Virus record (IMG/VR): IMGVR_UViG_3300012930_000021
Coordinates: 1-34,933 of that record
Strand: one strand, 5' to 3'
Origin: a virus
Length of the DNA: 34,933 nucleotides
Part shown: one piece after another, positions 5,158 to 22,077 of the stretch
How the letters are laid out: each line of letters opens with the position of its first letter
Position numbering within the stretch: position 1 is the stretch's first letter
The notes under the pieces: model-generated
Told to the model about the DNA's origin: nothing
Seen by the model: only the letters and a program-made list of their open reading frames with translations
Database searches by the model: none
Program-made: the position numbers and the translations under genes

Positions 5158-5327
5158 TATCTTGATTTTAGTTTATTTACCTTGACTGGACTTCTTTGAA
5201 GTGAACCTGTTTTTAATGGCCTCACAGTCCTATTACTTACTGGTACTCTTGGGCCAACTCTACTAGGAGCAGGCATAGATCTCATTTTTTGTTTTGGCAA
5301 TGGAGCTGATGTTACTAACCTGTTCAT
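5157..5327 (-). CDS. Tiny basic Pro/Arg-rich protein (56 residues)
   Basis: The frame from ATG at 5327 gives MNRLVTSAPLPKQKMRSMPA and a tail rich in Pro, Arg, Ser and Val (RVGPRVPVSNRTVRP). No acidic residues are visible and it is probably unstructured. It overlaps the downstream gene by 1 nt and begins 2 nt after the preceding stop. Basic composition and location parallel its neighbours. No family is recognised. Confidence 0.55.
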   Translation of the reverse strand: MNRLVTSAPLPKQKMRSMPAPSRVGPRVPVSNRTVRPLKTGSLQRSPVKVNKLKSR

Positions 5328-5567: not shown

Positions 5568-7712
5568 TTATTGCAAACCTTGCGGAGGCATGCCAGTTGG
5601 TGGTTGTCCTTGTGGTTGTGGGGGTTGCTGCTGCTGTTGCACCTGCTGCATTCGTTGTATATCTGCTGGGTTAATCGCTCCCCCACCTTGCCCAGGTACT
5701 CCTTGTGGAGGTTGTTGTTGCTGTTGTTGTGAAAGATCCACTGGTTGATCAGGAGCCTGCCCTTCATAAACTAAATGCGCTTGGATATGAGCCCCGACAA
5801 GATCATCTCGTCCTTTGCCTAATGCCTGTTGGTGAATTGCAACGTGTACCCAATGGTCGTCATGTTGATCTGGCATCACGGGCTTTCCCTCCAGAACCAT
5901 CATGTCATTTTCAACGTTTGGATCAACCTTTTGCACATCACTCTTTTGTCCAAGTTGGGATCTAAAGAGATGCTCGATACGGGTTTGCTCAACTATTTGG
6001 GCAACGTTACCAAACTCCCAGAGACGCAAGAATGTTGCAAGATCTATCGCTCCGAGTTGGAGAAGCTTGATTGTTTTTTCTTGCATCATTTCCTTGGTAT
6101 ACCCAAGCCAACTACCAATCGTCACACGGACATTATTGTCATCTCCGATTCTTAGAATATCTAACCAGTCGGGGCCAATTTTCACTTGATGCTCATGGCC
6201 TGGAATAGTATCTGCCTTTTTCTTATAACTCTTGTCACCAACCACAGCGAAATATTTTGCATCTTCTTCTCGATAGCCAAGGTCTTGGACAACCTTAACT
6301 CGATCATAGTTCTTGGCAATCTTTCGAAGCATCTTCCCACCAACGAGGGAGAGAAAATCTTCAAGATTGTCCACTAAATCATCCTGAGAAGTAGCGTCTG
6401 CTTGTTTCAGCTCCGCAACGCCAATACCAGATTTGACTCCTGCTGGGACACGACCCAAGGAAGCATCGTGTGCGCCACCAACGTCTTCGATATACCGACT
6501 AATACGATCTATCTGAGACGCAACAGCAATCGGCAGTGGAGGCATATCCATTGCTTGGACTCTTGCGCCACGATTAGCAGAGATGATTTCTCCATGTGTA
6601 TTGTGTACTGCCCGAACGCCAGAGTCACGGTCAACGATGATGCGACCCTTCGCTACCTTGTAGTTGTAATCAAAGACTGAAGACTCTAATGAATTGAGGA
6701 CACGGTTAAGTGGCATGACATGTTTAAACCAAGACTCGCCATAGATTTCTTTGGGGTTAAGATCTGCCTGGTAGATGACAAAGTCATATTCGTTTGTATC
6801 AAGATCTTCGTAGATGAGGGGGATTTGATTCTGGTCCGTCCAGACAACTTTTCGCAGATGCGCTTTGCCTGTCTCCTTGTTTCGGACACGGAAGTATCCC
6901 TCAAAGAGGATAACTGTTGGTGCTTCTTCCCGATTAAACTGCGTAACATACTTGAGTGCTTGAAGCATGAACTGTTTATATTCTGAAACAGCGAGTCGTG
7001 CTTCTCCTCCTGTAACCTCCCGCCTCGCAAGACGATTGTATTCCTGGTTATAGATAATGTCATAGAGGGGACGGCGGACTGCTTTAATGCAATATTCTGC
7101 ATCATCTAATTCTTCAGCTAAGGGATCAAAATAGAAGTCGAAAGGATCGACAAGCCAGACATCTATTTCTTTCTTTTCTTCATCATAGATGATCTGCCAG
7201 GGGCCACCAACGGAATACATCAGTCCTTGGATAACTGTTTCTTTTATCTTCTTCTTTAAGTTAAGGTGGTCATGATAGTAGTCAAGGAGTTTTCCTGCAT
7301 AGCGCGCTTGGCTTTGTGATTCTTCTGTTGTGTGGTTAGGCATCACTTCAAACTTAGGACGAAAAGAGGTAACTTGGTTTCGGATAGAGCGCATCTGCGC
7401 TAAGGTGATGTTAATAGGGATACGTGCGGTTTGTCGTGAGGCGAGGACAACAGTCTGGGTTGTTGGTTGGTACCTGGAGAACTGATACCCTCTTCGGAAG
7501 AGATCGCGAACCATCCACTCATAGTCGTAGCGTCGTCTGGCATCAGAGGCGTGAGTTAAAGAAAGTTTGGCAGTACCAGAGAGAAACTCACGTTGCTCCA
7601 TGAGTTTTTCCACTTCTTTTCGCTCTTCTTCTGTTAATGCAGGTTTATCCTGATCAATCGAAGAGACAACATTATAGGGGTTGGGACTAATATCGAGTGC
7701 TTGGATTGGCAT
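5568..7712 (-). CDS. Portal protein (P22-like)
   Basis: A 714-residue protein that forms the dodecameric DNA channel at one capsid vertex, docks the terminase and connects to the adaptor. The N-terminal helical region, the WQIIYDEEKKEIDVWLVDPF segment (about residues 172-191) and the later region around AHDASLGRVPAGVKSGIG match P22/T7-like portals of about 700 residues. The C-terminal 60 or so residues are a Gln/Pro/Gly-rich tail with poly-Gln runs, probably flexible. The gene starts at the stop of the upstream membrane-protein gene (1-nt overlap), so translation is likely coupled; no clear ribosome site is visible. Its place after terminase is standard. Confidence 0.92.
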   Translation of the reverse strand: MPIQALDISPNPYNVVSSIDQDKPALTEEERKEVEKLMEQREFLSGTAKLSLTHASDARRRYDYEWMVRDLFRRGYQFSRYQPTTQTVVLASRQTARIPINITLAQMRSIRNQVTSFRPKFEVMPNHTTEESQSQARYAGKLLDYYHDHLNLKKKIKETVIQGLMYSVGGPWQIIYDEEKKEIDVWLVDPFDFYFDPLAEELDDAEYCIKAVRRPLYDIIYNQEYNRLARREVTGGEARLAVSEYKQFMLQALKYVTQFNREEAPTVILFEGYFRVRNKETGKAHLRKVVWTDQNQIPLIYEDLDTNEYDFVIYQADLNPKEIYGESWFKHVMPLNRVLNSLESSVFDYNYKVAKGRIIVDRDSGVRAVHNTHGEIISANRGARVQAMDMPPLPIAVASQIDRISRYIEDVGGAHDASLGRVPAGVKSGIGVAELKQADATSQDDLVDNLEDFLSLVGGKMLRKIAKNYDRVKVVQDLGYREEDAKYFAVVGDKSYKKKADTIPGHEHQVKIGPDWLDILRIGDDNNVRVTIGSWLGYTKEMMQEKTIKLLQLGAIDLATFLRLWEFGNVAQIVEQTRIEHLFRSQLGQKSDVQKVDPNVENDMMVLEGKPVMPDQHDDHWVHVAIHQQALGKGRDDLVGAHIQAHLVYEGQAPDQPVDLSQQQQQQPPQGVPGQGGGAINPADIQRMQQVQQQQQPPQPQGQPPTGMPPQGLQ

Positions 7713-8191
7713 TATTGATAGTCAGAGAGGATTTGTTCATCATCTTCAAATTTAATATTCAAACTGTTTATGTTTGGAATACGTCCAATCTCTGATAATG
7801 GCACATCTGCAATCTCTTCTTTCTCTATACTATTCTTTTCTTGCTGGTTGTCAAGAAGGTGCGGGCCAAGACTTAAGGGAACAGCTTGTGGAGTCTCTTT
7901 GAGTACTTGAATAAAATCTGTCATTGCTGAGAGAAAGTCTTTCGTTTGTTTCTCTAAGATAGTTAATTGCTTACTACTTGTCTTCTCGAGTTGTTCAAAG
8001 TGTTTTGTTTCTACCTTTGTCACTTCTTGCATAAACGTTGTACTCGTCTTTTCAAGGGAGGAGATGTGTGTGGCAAGCAGACTATTTAACCGAGACTTCT
8101 CATCCTTATCCTTACTACTTAAGAGGTAGATAAAATAGTATAACATTCCTGTCTGTACAATAAGAACAACGCTTAAAAGTATAATTTCCAT
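7712..8191 (-). CDS. Membrane-anchored coiled-coil protein
   Basis: A 159-residue protein. Residues 1-24 (MEIILLSVVLIVQTGMLYYF) are a hydrophobic helix, presumably a membrane anchor. A long charged helix with heptad-like spacing follows (SLEKTSTTFMQEVTKVETKH, then FEQLEKTSSKQLTILEKQTK), and an acidic tail ends it. It lies between terminase and portal genes. Proteins of this shape are common in phage late operons but have no established role; it could act as a membrane-tethered assembly or lysis accessory. The function is not known. Confidence 0.7.
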   Translation of the reverse strand: MEIILLSVVLIVQTGMLYYFIYLLSSKDKDEKSRLNSLLATHISSLEKTSTTFMQEVTKVETKHFEQLEKTSSKQLTILEKQTKDFLSAMTDFIQVLKETPQAVPLSLGPHLLDNQQEKNSIEKEEIADVPLSEIGRIPNINSLNIKFEDDEQILSDYQ

Positions 8192-8194
8192 AGA

Positions 8195-9892
8195 TTAAAA
8201 TTCGTCCATGTTAACGCCTCCACCCCCACCCATTTGATCGGGGGAAGTTGGCATCCCTTTACTGTTAAATGAAATACCATCCATGTAAAAGCCTTTGCTT
8301 TCGTTTAATATATCTTCATCGCTCTGCTCTATTGCATTCCCTCGTGCCGAGACTTTGGCTCGTTGTAACATACGAAGGCCAATAAGAAAAGACATTACCC
8401 GATCATCATACGCGCTCTTTGCTGCTCTGGCTTTTCCGTCAGAGTCCCGAATAAATGACATCATCTCTCCCACCGTCGCGTCGTCGTAAAGGAGTAACCG
8501 CTTATCCCGAAGCAGATTGGTTGCGTCAGAAATAAGAGATTCCTTTGAAATACTATCTGTTACCCAACCGAGTTCGGCAGTTATCTTCTCAACGATCATA
8601 CCAAACTTTTCGCGATAATACAGATTAGGATAATTGAGATCTCGCAAAACAACAAGAGGGGTAATGCCCACGGCATTTCTCTCAACCCCAATAAAGGCGT
8701 CATTGTAATAACGTCCCAGTAGATCAAGCTGACGACCAAGCAAGTCAGGATCAATTCGACCATGCCAACATGCTACTTGCTCATAGGTTGTTTTGTCAAA
8801 TACCTGGGCGCATGATGCATCACGCTCTCTTCCACCCTGCCCTGTTTCTGATACAACTTTTCCTTCAGAGACATCTACCCCGATTGCATAGGTGTGAAAT
8901 TCTTCAGGTTGTTTCCAGATTTTTAAGTATCCTTTTTCATTTGGTTCGATACTAATTGGTTGATACCCACGGAGGTTGCCAACGAGTAAAGGTTTCTGGC
9001 AATGGGTAAGATAATGCTTCATTAGCATTGGAGACCAGACGGGGTTTCCTGAAACGATAAAGGCTTCTTCTGCATTGGAAGGAAACTCTTGATTGAAAGA
9101 ATCCCAAGAGCCAGGGTCTCGATAGTCACCACCCATTTGGGAAATCTTCCAACGACGCCAACTAATCTGCTCATGAGAGAGTCGATATCTATTCATGAGA
9201 TTCTTCTCCTCATCAGTTAATTCTAAAGGGACTGTCCCGACAGGAAAGACATAGTTGGGTAATTCAAACCAGGGAAGGAAGTGGGTACGAAACGCACTAT
9301 CTCCTTCACGTGAGCGAATCCAGAGTTTGTAGAAGTAGTCCCCGATACCATTAGCGGTACTCTCGATCACTATACGTCCGTCTTTCGGGACGGCTTGGAG
9401 GAGTCCTATCATCAAACGTTCTTGATCTGGCCACAGTGCTAACTCTGATATATGGAGATTATTTATCGTATCCCCACGACCGAATGCCTTTGCACCCGCA
9501 GTACCGATATAGAAGACAGAGTTCTTCTGGGTATTAACTAGCTCATGGCGGGAGTTGTATTTGAGGGTAAAGGGGAGTTCTCCAGGGAATGTCTTTTTCA
9601 TACTCTCTAAGAAATATTTCACCCGATCAAAGAGACGCTGGGTTGCCTTATCTTCATGCGAAATAACCACACAGCGTATATTCTCAACCGTTATAAAATC
9701 TATGGCAAACATGGCGAGGATCAAACTACTAATACCCTCCTGGCGTGCCTTGAGGATAATGTCCATGTTGGCTAACTCTTTAAGTACCCGTACTTGGGGA
9801 ACGTTTAAAACAAACGGGATAGATTCCATGTCAGTGTTAATGATATGGAATAATTTACTAATAGCCTTTTGGTAATACCCTGCATCATGCAT
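8195..9892 (-). CDS. Terminase large subunit
   Basis: A 565-residue packaging motor: an N-terminal ATPase pumps DNA into the prohead and a C-terminal RNase H-fold nuclease cuts the concatemer. Visible motifs: a Walker-A-like KARQEGISS near residue 47, a Walker-B-like LHISELALW near 146, the coupling motif VIESTANG near 175, and nuclease acidic residues in AIGVDVSEG (about 338), FIGVERNAVG (about 395) and AYDDRVMSF (about 506). The C-terminus is Gly-rich. The small-subunit gene lies just upstream and the portal downstream, as usual. The start at 9892 overlaps the previous gene by 8 nt. Confidence 0.95.
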   Translation of the reverse strand: MHDAGYYQKAISKLFHIINTDMESIPFVLNVPQVRVLKELANMDIILKARQEGISSLILAMFAIDFITVENIRCVVISHEDKATQRLFDRVKYFLESMKKTFPGELPFTLKYNSRHELVNTQKNSVFYIGTAGAKAFGRGDTINNLHISELALWPDQERLMIGLLQAVPKDGRIVIESTANGIGDYFYKLWIRSREGDSAFRTHFLPWFELPNYVFPVGTVPLELTDEEKNLMNRYRLSHEQISWRRWKISQMGGDYRDPGSWDSFNQEFPSNAEEAFIVSGNPVWSPMLMKHYLTHCQKPLLVGNLRGYQPISIEPNEKGYLKIWKQPEEFHTYAIGVDVSEGKVVSETGQGGRERDASCAQVFDKTTYEQVACWHGRIDPDLLGRQLDLLGRYYNDAFIGVERNAVGITPLVVLRDLNYPNLYYREKFGMIVEKITAELGWVTDSISKESLISDATNLLRDKRLLLYDDATVGEMMSFIRDSDGKARAAKSAYDDRVMSFLIGLRMLQRAKVSARGNAIEQSDEDILNESKGFYMDGISFNSKGMPTSPDQMGGGGGVNMDEF

Positions 9893-17826: not shown

Positions 17827-18507
17827 ATGGCAATATTTGACGAGCTTAAAACTGATTATGAGGTGGGTGAAGCCATAAATGGCCTTGTCGATAGTACGTA
17901 TAAGCAATTATCGGATAGGTTATGGATGACACGAGAAGAACATATGTCAAAATATTATTTCCCATCATCATATTTCGATGGATGGATACAGACCAGGTGG
18001 GACCCAGATGGTACGGTGAAAGGAGGTGAGAATGATATGCAGAATACAAGTGATTTCAAAATAGGAGATAAGCTTGTCTTAAAAAAGGAAGGCGGTGGTT
18101 ATCTTAACTCTACTTGTGGCAACCTCGATAATGATTTCGAAGACGATAGAGTATCTTACATCATTGTGAGAGCCAAAGGTAGTAATGATAATTACATCTC
18201 CCGATGGGACGCATATGATAGTAACAACGAGCTCGTTAGATCAACTTGTTGTGGAGTTTACTCTCAATATTTTGAAAAAATCTCTTCTGCACAAAGTTTT
18301 ATGCAAACACTCAATATTTTAGCAAAGAAACTCCTTGATGCTGATACAAAAGCATTAGTAAAAGCAGGAGTTTTAGATGATTGCCTGAAAGTGAAAGATA
18401 CTGAATTTATCCTTTCTTTTTTGGTTAATCTTTACAAGAAAGACCTCGCAGCAGAAGCTCGAGCACTCTTGAAAGAACAAGAAGACCAAACAGATGCGAA
18501 AGCATAA
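17827..18507 (+). CDS. First rightward early gene, unknown
   Basis: A 226-residue protein (MAIFDELKTDYEVGEAINGL). It has no membrane segment; a Cys pair lies in RSTCCGVYSQ, and the C-terminus is a charged helix (EARALLKEQEDQTDAKA). There is no ribosome site at the first ATG, which lies about 5 nt from the predicted transcription start. A very strong site (AAAGGAGGTGAG) precedes an in-frame ATG at 18037 (MQNTSDFKIGDKLVLKKEGG). So a second, 156-residue product is likely, or only the short form is made. No family is recognised. Confidence 0.66.
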   Translation: MAIFDELKTDYEVGEAINGLVDSTYKQLSDRLWMTREEHMSKYYFPSSYFDGWIQTRWDPDGTVKGGENDMQNTSDFKIGDKLVLKKEGGGYLNSTCGNLDNDFEDDRVSYIIVRAKGSNDNYISRWDAYDSNNELVRSTCCGVYSQYFEKISSAQSFMQTLNILAKKLLDADTKALVKAGVLDDCLKVKDTEFILSFLVNLYKKDLAAEARALLKEQEDQTDAKA

Positions 18508-18572
18508 TCTTGGTTTCTCGTTAGAGTCTATCCTCCCAGGTAGGCTCTTGCGAGGAAACGGAGGTGAAATAT

Positions 18573-19168
18573 ATGACAAAGGTTACTATGGAAGAAACAA
18601 CCAATTACGACCAGTTTTCCTTTTTGAAAGGGAATCGGACGTTATCGATGGACAACATCGTCTCATGGTTGCAAAGCAAAATAAGCTTCCTATCTTTTAT
18701 ATCGTTAATCCCCTGGCAACACTTGAGGAGGTTCGTATTCAAAACACGTACACGAAGAGCTGGAAGGCAACTGATTTTATTCAATCATTTGCAACGTTAG
18801 GAAAAAGTGATTATCTGTGGCTCTGGGAAACAATGCAGAATAATCGATTTTCTCTTTCAACAGTTCTTATCTTTATGTACTCCTATCGAACTGGCCACCA
18901 ATCACCAAGGATCAAGCATGGTGAGTTTAGTGCTACAGCGTTTGAGAAGGATCGAGCAGAGAAACGTATTAAAAAGATGGAGAGTATTCGTCCCTATATC
19001 AATGTGAAAGGGGGATATAATAGATCGTTTTTAACTGAGATGATGCGGATCATCGACGAAAAAGCGTTTGATGTCTTTGTAGAAAACATCGAGCAAAGTG
19101 GGAAGACATATCAGCAACCAAACAACTCGGACGAAGTACAACGATTTGTTCAGAAACTGCTGAAATAA
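18573..19168 (+). pseudogene. DGQHR (ParB-like) protein gene, broken by internal deletion
   Basis: A strong site (GGAGGTGAAAT) precedes ATG 18573, opening MTKVTMEETTNYDQFSFLKG-NR, which matches the start of phage DGQHR/ParB-like proteins ('TTxYxxFxFLKGNR'). The next bases continue the family only in another frame: VIDGQHRLMVAKQNKLPIFY from 18641, then RIQNTYTKSWKATDFIQSF and on to the stop at 19168. Family members normally have roughly 45 residues between GNR and DGQHR; here they are adjacent and out of frame. A deletion near 18636-18641 is the simplest reading. The downstream frame is open back to ATG 18494, but without a ribosome site. Could be an assembly error. Confidence 0.6.
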
Positions 19169-19205: not shown

Positions 19206-19814
19206 ATGGCACAAGAACTAAAAATAGAAATACCAGCACCAAATATTCAGTTGATTAAGGTCAAAATTATTGGCACGTCTCCACTCATTTATCATAAATG
19301 GGATGAGAAGGCAATTAAAATGATTGAGGATAAACAGCAAAAGAAAGCGACCAAAGGTCGTGAAGCTCGTGATCCTGATGCTGAATACAAGAATAGCTTT
19401 TATTATGATTCTGAAGGGAATATTGCTTTCCCTGCTCGAAACATTAAACAGGCTATCGTCGGGTCAGCTCGCTTCTTACAAGATGTGAAGATGACTATTT
19501 TGCGTGGAGCAGTCTTTGTGAAAGGTGATAAGGATAATATGATTCCTGTTATCTACAAAGAGAAAGATAAGCATATGCGAAAAGACATGGTAACTGTTGG
19601 TATGGGATCTGCTGATGTTCGCTATCGAGGAGAACTTCGAGAGTGGAGCATGGAATTTATCATCGAATACGATGGTGATCTCATGTCTGCTTCTCAAGTT
19701 GTTAATCTTTTACAACGCGCAGGGTTTTCTCAGGGTTTGGGAGAATGGCGTCCAGAAAAGAATGGCGACAACGGGACATTCGAGGTAGAGACTGAAGCAG
19801 GAGGAAAGAAGTAA
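19206..19814 (+). CDS. Conserved phage protein of unknown function (GLGEWRPEK family)
   Basis: A 202-residue protein. The ATG at 19206 has GAGGAGGTGAA 6 nt upstream and is chosen over a TTG at 19173. Hallmarks: IIGTSPLIYHKWDEKAIKMI near the start, a Lys/Arg-rich segment, IAFPARNIKQAIVGSARF in the middle, MVTVGMGSADVRYRGELREW, and a C-terminal Gly loop FSQGLGEWRPEKNGDNGTFE. I recognise this order from many phage genomes, where it is uncharacterised; the Gly-rich loop and alternating strands recall RAMP-like RNA-binding folds, but that is inference. It directly precedes the 5-nt-periodic array. Confidence 0.75.
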   Translation: MAQELKIEIPAPNIQLIKVKIIGTSPLIYHKWDEKAIKMIEDKQQKKATKGREARDPDAEYKNSFYYDSEGNIAFPARNIKQAIVGSARFLQDVKMTILRGAVFVKGDKDNMIPVIYKEKDKHMRKDMVTVGMGSADVRYRGELREWSMEFIIEYDGDLMSASQVVNLLQRAGFSQGLGEWRPEKNGDNGTFEVETEAGGKK

Positions 19815-19820
19815 CAAACA

Positions 19821-19841
19821 AATCCTGCCCATTTGTTTATG
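19821..19841 (+). repeat. Leader-like repeat, copy 1
   Basis: AATCCTGCCCATTTGTTT followed by ATG, 6 nt after a stop codon. A near-identical copy (one extra T) lies at 28098-28119, also 3-4 nt after a stop codon and directly in front of the glycosyltransferase ATG. Here the ATG opens only eight codons (MEWYSNAR) before a stop, where the pentamer array begins. Confidence 0.65.
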
Positions 19842-19842
19842 G

Positions 19843-20574
19843 AATGGTATAGCAACGCACGGTAAGTTCAGGAAAGGCTTGCAATTCTTGGCAGTAATGG
19901 AGAGAACGGGTGGGTTGAGGTGCTGTAAGTTACGTTTCGGATTTGAGAGTTAAGTCAGGGCAGTACGGGATTGGAACGCTGTGTTTCGTACAGGTGAGTT
20001 ATTGTGGGTTCAGGATTGGCTCTTTTGGCAGTATTGGATCGGAGGGCTGTGTATAGGTTTGTCGAGGTTAGTACCGTTATAGCAGGGGAAATGGGGTACG
20101 CTAAGGAATAAATTGTTTGGTTATGGCAGTATTGGTGGGTTTCGGTGTTTTGTGGTAGCGCAGGGAGGACTTGGGTTCGACTTGGCAGTCGAGGAGGGGT
20201 AAGGGTGATGAGAGCAATGAGGATTGGAGTGGCAGTCGCGGAGTGTAATGGATAGTTTTTATCGGTAGTGGTTCGTCACGGTGAGTTGAGGACAGGTAGT
20301 ATGTGGCAGTAGCGGCTTGAGAGGAATGGTCAGTCGGCGTTAGGCTTATAAAGGCAGTCAGGGAGGATTTCGGAATCGTGAGTTAGGTTGCGTTGCGAAC
20401 TATTTGGCAGTTGGGGTCAGGTACGGAGAGTTTTTGTCGGTTAGGGTATGGAAAGGCAGTCGGGGCGAGGATCGGTAAGTTAGGGGGAGCTGGGTTGTGG
20501 TACGGAAAGATTTGGCAGTAAGGGTCAGGTAAGGCAATAAACGGTATGTCAGGGAGCGTTTAGGATAGGAGAGG
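19843..20574 (+). ncRNA. Pentamer-periodic G-rich array (HNNGK)n with CAGT punctuation
   Basis: About 730 nt with no usable frame, C-poor and G-rich on the plus strand. Cut into 5-nt words, G is at word position 4 in about 108 of 129 words (counted by eye), position 5 is mostly G or T, and position 1 is almost never G. Typical words are TAAGT, TCAGG, ATTGG, CAGGG and TGAGT, each used several times. Every 24-98 nt the phase is reset by the 4-mer CAGT (12 copies: 19892, 19961, 20029, 20127, 20186, 20233, 20307, 20331, 20355, 20408, 20457, 20516), 11 of them as GGCAGT. It is transcribed with its neighbours if at all and ends 4 nt before tRNA-Asn. No known family matches. Confidence 0.72.
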
Positions 20575-20578
20575 CTTT

Positions 20579-20650
20579 TGGCGAATAGCTCAACGGTAGA
20601 GCAATGCACTGTTAATGCATCGGTTCTAGGTTCGAATCCTAGTTCGCCAG
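20579..20650 (+). tRNA. tRNA-Asn (GTT anticodon)
   Basis: Cloverleaf read directly: acceptor TGGCGAA/TTCGCCA, D-arm GCTC-AACGGTA-GAGC, anticodon arm ATGCA-CTGTTAA-TGCAT with anticodon GTT, variable CGGTT, T-arm CTAGG-TTCGAAT-CCTAG, discriminator G. CCA is not fully encoded (GCAAA follows), so host CCA addition is needed. It lies 4 nt after the pentamer array and 23 nt before the next gene, so RNase P would cut at the array's 3' end. Confidence 0.95.
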
Positions 20651-20673
20651 CAAAGATAAGGAGGTGAAATAAT

Positions 20674-21141
20674 ATGAAGAAAATACGAAAAGTAGGACTA
20701 CAAAAAGTCAAGGAACCAAAATATGTTGCAGTCTTAAAGCAGATTGAGGAAGATCATGGCATCATTACACCATATATGGTCGTTGAAGCTGCTAAAAAAG
20801 CAGACTCGCCATTACATAATGCGTTTGAATGGGATGATACGAAGGCTGCGGAGAAGTTTCGTATCGTGCAGGCTCGTATGCTTATCAATAGTGTACGTGT
20901 AGAAATCATGGGACAGAAAACAGAAGGATACATTAACGCAATCGTTCATGTAGATAACGTCGCTTCACGAGGGTATGTCTCAACAGAAGTAGCGATGAAT
21001 GATGATTTTATCTATAAACAGGTGTTAAAGAATGCAACTCGAGAACTCGAGTACTGGCAGAAAAAGTACCGAATGCTTAAAGACTTACAGGGAATAGTTA
21101 ATGAAGAGAAAGTAGAAGAATTGAGACGGAAGATTAGCTAA
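20674..21141 (+). CDS. Conserved phage protein of unknown function
   Basis: A 155-residue protein with AAGGAGGTGAA well placed before the ATG. The segment SPLHNAFEWDDTKAAEKFRI (about residues 45-64), followed by VQARMLINSVRV, is a combination seen repeatedly in phage hypothetical proteins. The second half is helical and charged (ATRELEYWQKKYRMLKDL). In many phages this type of protein is found near the GLGEWRPEK-type protein; here the array and tRNA lie between them. Function is unknown; it may act in DNA metabolism. Confidence 0.75.
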   Translation: MKKIRKVGLQKVKEPKYVAVLKQIEEDHGIITPYMVVEAAKKADSPLHNAFEWDDTKAAEKFRIVQARMLINSVRVEIMGQKTEGYINAIVHVDNVASRGYVSTEVAMNDDFIYKQVLKNATRELEYWQKKYRMLKDLQGIVNEEKVEELRRKIS

Positions 21142-21732: not shown

Positions 21733-22077
21733 CTAATCAAAGAGTGTAGATGGGTAATGGCTCCCCGTCCCTTTAAATAAATTAGTAGTTGTCAAACCGA
21801 GATGTTTTTTAACGGCATATTTTAATAGAGCAAATCTGGAGTGGTGATTATTATTTTTAAAAACGAGTATTCCAGATCTAAATAACTCGTGAGATAAGAA
21901 ATGACAACGCTTACATAAAACTCGGAGATCAGAAGTAGAAACATTAAATAGATTCCCATAATTTAAATGATGGGTATGGAGAACTTCATTAGTTGCACAA
22001 ACCGCACATCGTCTATTTTTCTTTTGAGCTCTTAGATTCTTCCAGTGACTGGTTTGTAAATATTCTTTATATTCCAT
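21733..22077 (-). CDS. HNH endonuclease-like protein
   Basis: A 114-residue protein. MEYKEYLQTSHWKNLRAQKK is a typical N-terminus ('YLxSxHWxxLR') of small HNH proteins. RRCAVCATNEVLHTHHLNYG carries the first Cys pair and HxHH-like catalytic region, and LRVLCKRCHFLSHELFR carries the second Cys pair and final His residues. These give the zinc-stabilised beta-beta-alpha-metal nuclease core. The start is at 22077. It could be a free-standing homing-type nuclease or a phage nicking enzyme; no intron is evident beside it. Confidence 0.85.
   Translation of the reverse strand: MEYKEYLQTSHWKNLRAQKKNRRCAVCATNEVLHTHHLNYGNLFNVSTSDLRVLCKRCHFLSHELFRSGILVFKNNNHHSRFALLKYAVKKHLGLTTTNLFKGTGSHYPSTLFD

Follow-up and report, generated by a model that had tools for sequence, protein, structure and literature searches.

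A phage locus harboring an array of five-nucleotide words that most probably represents a loosely spelled VIPR guide-RNA system

Layout of the array and its flanking genes

The window analyzed here, a 34,933-nt stretch of viral DNA (IMG/VR record IMGVR_UViG_3300012930_000021), harbors an array of five-letter words that is preceded by a gene for a RAMP/Cas7-like protein, Vipr, and followed by tRNA-Asn(GTT) and a candidate vipr-accessory gene (Table 1). Directly upstream of vipr lies a ParB/DGQHR-like gene (positions 18494 to 19168; PHROG 12305, E = 3e-20), which is missing from all 72 related loci considered below and is, on that account, probably not part of the same system. A short HNH-endonuclease-like gene (PHROG matches, E = 1e-4) occupies the minus strand at positions 21733 to 22077.

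The array was originally predicted to be a noncoding region with a strict 5-nt period, in which G holds the fourth position of approximately 108 of 129 words and copies of CAGT reset the phase, and each of these properties was borne out. The autocorrelation of G across positions 19843 to 20574 amounted to 0.198, 0.243, 0.141, and 0.212 at lags of 5, 10, 15, and 20, respectively, compared with a mean of about 0 (standard deviation, 0.036 to 0.039) and a maximum of 0.10 among 500 dinucleotide-preserving shuffles, and the strongest lag-5 signal of the entire 34.9 kb was obtained from the segments covering the array (from position 19701 on). A fitted 5-state segmentation resolved 132 words of the form HNNGK, of which 111 had G at position 4 and 118 had G or T at position 5, T alone accounting for about 30% of the latter position, and position 1 was occupied by A in about a third (35%) and by G in about 1%; these percentages are slightly flattered because the segmentation was fitted to the array data, a bias of which the autocorrelation test is free. 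The predicted count of twelve CAGT copies, 11 of which are followed by GG at downstream bases 4 and 5, was reproduced exactly, and these copies open units U1 to U12 (Table 1).

Between 9 and 14 clean words were found in 7 of the 12 units, the remainder (U3, U5, U7, U8, and U9) being short or phase slipped, and part of the array may, for this reason, be decayed. Ordinary tandem repeats were not detected in the array region, the array RNA was predicted to fold no better than its shuffles (z = 0.54), and a promoter and terminator scan returned nothing above chance near the array. The tRNA was the sole match in an Rfam search, and blastn of the array region against known phages likewise returned matches to the tRNA only. 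The first base of this tRNA, which lacks an encoded CCA, is located 4 nt past the final array word; an array-adjacent tRNA was absent from 47 related loci, rendering the window unique among the 48 examined. RNase P cleavage at the tRNA might possibly generate the 3′ terminus of the array RNA.

Table 1. Positions of the vipr gene, the array with its constituent units, and the downstream features within the window
Feature	Position	Strand	Basis
vipr gene, 202 aa, RAMP/Cas7-like Vipr protein, PHROG 4652	19206..19814	+	Profile and fold matches
Putative vrRNA array, tandem HNNGK words, units separated by 4-nt CAGT	19838..20578	+	Autocorrelation, segmentation; neighboring vipr on the same strand in almost every related locus
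U0, words leading up to first CAGT	19843..19891	+	Segmentation
U1, CAGT + 13 words	19892..19960	+	Segmentation
U2, CAGT + 11 words, then broken end	19961..20028	+	Segmentation
U3, CAGT + 11 words, phase slip, 7 further words	20029..20126	+	Segmentation
U4, CAGT + 11 words	20127..20185	+	Segmentation
U5, irregular, two phase slips	20186..20232	+	Segmentation
U6, CAGT + 14 words; serine recombinase catalytic motif by 1-nt skip	20233..20306	+	Decoding, pattern searches
U7 + U8, two short 24-nt CAGT units (CAGT at 20307, 20331)	20307..20354	+	CAGT positions, segmentation
U9	20355..20407	+	Segmentation
U10, CAGT + 9 words	20408..20456	+	Segmentation
U11, CAGT + 11 words	20457..20515	+	Segmentation
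U12, CAGT + 11 words	20516..20574	+	Segmentation
tRNA-Asn(GTT), immediately 3′ of array	20579..20651	+	72.8 bits
Candidate vipr-accessory gene, 155 aa, PHROG 15946	20674..21141	+	Homolog adjoins vipr in 66/72 loci

Relationship of the locus to VIPR systems

VIPR is a CRISPR-like weapon of phages against rival phages, described in a 2026 preprint (PMC13142463). Its Vipr proteins are ancestral RAMPs, and its vrRNAs consist of 9 to 16 YNNGG repeats, whose NN letters recognize double-stranded DNA in which one nucleotide is skipped after each pair, and the targets are mainly phage genes; for SUSP1, RNA expression, RNP formation, DNA binding, and repression have all been shown (PMC13142463). The statement in the original prediction that no element of this form had been described was overtaken by this report of alternating GGY/NN guide RNAs, besides which a literature search for VIPR-type arrays retrieved no second report.

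The protein encoded upstream of the array is readily linked to this system. A profile built from 51 homologs matched PDB entry 36pp_D, “SUSP1 Vipr protein,” with an E value of 3.2e-16 (8.6e-8 for the single sequence), and in the reverse search the window-family profile recovered the SUSP1 vipr with an E value of 1.8e-19. The AF2 model of the window protein (pLDDT 89.5) showed the RAMP fold with its RRM core, the best PDB matches being RAMPs of the Csm3/Cas7 kind (VIA Z 12.1, rmsd 3.5, 158 residues; Foldseek E = 1e-6), and a C-terminal GxGEWRPEKNG segment is near-invariant in the family alignment; Pfam returned no informative match for either this protein or the accessory protein. As a yardstick, the array model was applied to SUSP1, where it reproduced the published layout, with a single array ahead of vipr and three behind it. 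Because the window Vipr matches the solved SUSP1 protein, its model matches Csm3/Cas7, and the yardstick agrees, we propose, with a probability of about 0.95, that the locus constitutes a phage-borne VIPR system with a vrRNA guide array. Real and striking as this finding is, its kind has already been described, the window representing a loosely spelled VIPR dialect.

Retrieval of 72 viral loci with the gene upstream of the array (positions 19206 to 19814, PHROG 4652) placed the window among a large group of similarly organized relatives. A 5-nt G period was the top short-period signal in most of these vipr-family loci and was situated close to vipr in nearly every locus with enough flank; the words vary among related phages and the period stays, a pattern which the original prediction had put forward for scrutiny. 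The arrays may lie on either side of vipr and differ greatly in length, the longest reaching 1.6 kb. A strict grammar is seen in GC-rich phages, with CNNGG words joined by the 4-nt CAGG, and DNA patterns derived from this grammar alone were employed in a blind search which identified 149 further loci. Vipr was encoded in 119 of these (48 of 52 where at least 2.5 kb was available on both sides), in all 119 cases on the same strand as the array and at a median distance of 73 nt. The 4-nt joining word was CAGG 1,337 times and CAGT 152 times, and the commonest unit size was 9 or 10 words.

The word consensus of the window is weaker than that of most loci. Approximately 24 other, mostly AT-rich loci use CAGT instead of CAGG, and in the majority of these T is frequent at position 5; locus GC content correlates with C at position 1 (r = 0.62) and G at position 5 (r = 0.54). 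The frequency of A at position 1 in the window is approached by L006 (31%) and is similar in L002, the nearest relative by protein, albeit in a short array. Among the other arrays, that of L043 (positions 7156 to 8726) adjoins vipr and comprises 323 words (1.57 kb), and L067, L068, L073, and L030 each carry two period-5 arrays, which flank vipr on both sides in the first three. Vipr and arrays were also observed in bacterial genomes (L075, L079, L085, L087, L096, and other genome contigs), e.g., those of Mycobacterium szulgai, Bradyrhizobium lablabi, Aureimonas, and Streptomyces, and these are likely to represent prophages or host-borne VIPR systems.

The accessory protein (positions 20674 to 21141) gave no significant match in a PDB fold search, the best weak matches being PadR/MarR winged-helix DNA-binding proteins (Z 5.5); such a predicted fold would fit the preprint's account of several vap genes, which encode DNA-binding proteins (PMC13142463). 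Since SUSP1 gave no match to the accessory-gene profile (its 30- to 60-kb region being examined by tblastn only), the studied SUSP1 type probably has a different accessory gene.

It may be argued that the VIPR locus is no longer active, its loose words and its short or slipped units being the remains of a decaying array. Such a scenario, for which the irregular units and the weak consensus would speak, is considered improbable, as vipr and the accessory gene are intact, the majority of units remain clean, U6 throughout its 14 words, and the CAGT spelling is common to the other loci mentioned above and looks, as a consequence, like a maintained dialect.

Candidate targets of the guide units

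Application of the published 1-nt-skip rule, whereby the NN letters at positions 2 and 3 are read as codons of the form NNx, provided an interpretable product for U6. Its letters (GC GT AT TA TT CG GT TC AC GA GA CA AG GT) correspond to the codons A V I/M Y F/L R V S T D/E D/E H/Q R/S V and thus spell AVIYLRVSTEEQSV, the catalytic motif of serine integrases; the decoded peptide, AVIYLRVST(D/E)(D/E)(Q/H)SV, matched PF00239 only in Pfam (positions 1 to 13, E = 0.096), and eight shuffled U6 peptides produced zero matches. When words 3 to 10 were used as a pattern, eight viral stretches were retrieved, six of which were serine recombinases (assigned by motif and flanking sequence), the match falling on the N-terminal catalytic motif and its frame being the wobble-aligned one. 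Words 7 to 14 retrieved 11 stretches, including two serine recombinases, again at the catalytic motif in that frame, in which the unused left six words matched 8 of 12 letters (3 expected); one of these two, a large serine integrase in the prophage of an isolate (MKAIYVRVSTEEQSV...), matched 11 of the 14 U6 words.

A tblastn search of known phages with the U6 peptide returned 11 records, mostly from Listeria and Anoxybacillus phages, nine of which carried an integrase, recombinase, or invertase annotation and two of which had none. The integrase of Listeria A118 matched 22 of the 28 U6 letters, exceeding all 20,000 word shuffles, which is to be read as support rather than as an independent test because this integrase was picked via the decoded peptide; serine recombinases fetched without reference to U6 matched 13 to 16 of 28 letters (permutation P = 0.0004 to 0.016). 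The best targets found reached 24 of 28 letters, none being full length, and no self-target was seen, as the window record lacks a PF00239 gene. As judged from these matches, the probable target of U6 is an integrase gene carried by a rival temperate phage.

The skip rule was further assessed with 895 units from all loci, which were searched against 5.4 Mb on both strands of a sequence set enriched in VIPR loci. Matches with an E value below 0.001 numbered 0, 6, 0, and 0 for skips of 0, 1, 2, and 3 nt, respectively; one of the six skip-1 matches was the window's own U6, a selected unit, and the other five were unselected. A unit of L027 matched the accessory gene of L024 (positions 5229 to 5258) at 19 of 20 letters, and one of L208 matched the vipr gene of L029 (position 6349) at 20 of 22 letters, both with a 1-nt skip, and these units would represent VIPR aimed at VIPR. 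VIPR genes of other phages were, accordingly, the targets in two of the five unselected matches, a share which means little given the enrichment of the searched sequence in VIPR loci.

Target scans with U1, U2, U11, and U12 retrieved matches in which the pattern letters agreed and the words outside the pattern matched at chance level. A terminase Walker-A-like reading of U1 and a holin-like reading of U12 are not claimed for this reason, their unused words being at chance, and an attempt to interpret U12 as a tyrosine-recombinase guide was unsupported. The U11 pattern matches (L224 to L245) derived mostly from one conserved phage sequence, which reads VTPSLFDS in antisense, present in most of the 22 contigs and at chance outside the pattern.

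The decoded units also bear on the nature of the array itself. TRAP, whose sites are spaced about 5 nt apart, illustrates how a strict 5-nt period and a multimeric partner might equally characterize an RNA which guides nothing and whose variable letters are meaningless, serving instead as a sponge, decoy, or structural scaffold for some RNA-binding protein of the phage or its host. This alternative is highly unlikely, since the companion gene of the array encodes a RAMP homologous to SUSP1 Vipr rather than TRAP, a serine-integrase motif emerges from the variable letters of U6 in a single frame and at a single skip, and units of other loci give strong DNA matches at skip 1 only. The originally suggested multimeric RNA-binding protein with one site per 5 nt fits the published Vipr subunits on YNNGG repeats, and it is a role as sponge or scaffold only that is not supported. 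The further suggestion of a DNA-level element, i.e., a G-quadruplex or R-loop locus, a replication origin, or a packaging or partition site, for which the G-rich strand and the ParB-like upstream gene could be cited, is given next to no credence, as the array adjoins vipr on the same strand across unrelated phages and prophages, varies widely in length and side, is unaccompanied by the ParB-like gene in every related locus, and has published counterparts, the vrRNAs, which are expressed RNAs (PMC13142463).

Proposed mode of action and comparison with known systems

In the proposed VIPR system, the array would be transcribed from the strand of vipr, and copies of the Vipr RAMP would coat the RNA, each occupying one 5-nt word, holding on to its fixed G(K) letters and exposing the variable pair at positions 2 and 3. 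The exposed dinucleotides are predicted to pair jointly with double-stranded DNA as NNxNNxNNx, in which the skipped x is usually the codon wobble base, and guide binding would repress the target gene. Individual guides may correspond to CAGT-to-CAGT stretches, mostly of 9 to 14 words, their ends being presumably marked by CAGT because this 4-nt word breaks the 5-nt register. The U6 guide would, in this manner, direct repression of a serine integrase gene in a competing temperate phage.

We tentatively propose, as a possibility that falls well short of being probable, that the window exemplifies a tail-less VIPR dialect in which the 4-nt CAGT/CAGG, being one variable letter short, would break the filament register and mark guide ends, the pyrimidine rule at position 1 would have been lost (HNNGK), and the tRNA-Asn fused to the array would allow RNase P to produce the 3′ end of the precursor. 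The locus offers independent support, from an AT-rich phage with Bacillota-like features, for the noncontiguous RNA-guide code of the recent preprint, which, as the locus suggests, is readable with looser fixed letters. It also provides a compact rule for the splitting of continuous VIPR arrays, i.e., CAGK-delimited units of most commonly 9 to 10 words, by which large numbers of guides could be matched to their targets, and indicates integrases as a target in phage-phage conflict.

Class 1 CRISPR-Cas systems (type III Csm3/Cas7 on crRNA) share with the window the RAMP fold and the general logic of a guide RNA that is coated by a protein filament and left unpaired at regular intervals. The window differs in its period of 5 rather than 6, in its interrupted guide letters, in possessing a single RAMP plus one accessory gene, and in having no CRISPR repeats; identical repeats of about 25 to 40 nt with spacers are absent, the common element being one 4-nt word. 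The window may also be comparable with the VIPR types designated “staggered arrays with overlapping vrRNAs” and “related consensus” (figures S17 and S18 of the preprint), continuous arrays and a looser consensus being mentioned there among seven types (PMC13142463). In SUSP1 VIPR (type II; PMC13142463, PDB 36pp), four separate vrRNAs have repeat tracts of about 56 to 77 nt, each followed by a nonrepeat tail, which in type II is conserved, structured, and 3′, whereas the window has one continuous, tail-less array of about 12 CAGT-joined units, HNNGK rather than YNNGG words, a different accessory gene, and a tRNA at its 3′ end. The two nevertheless resemble each other in their homologous Vipr RAMPs, in their same-strand arrays of 5-nt words beside vipr, in NN letters that appear to be read with a 1-nt skip, and in guides that would be aimed at competing mobile elements.
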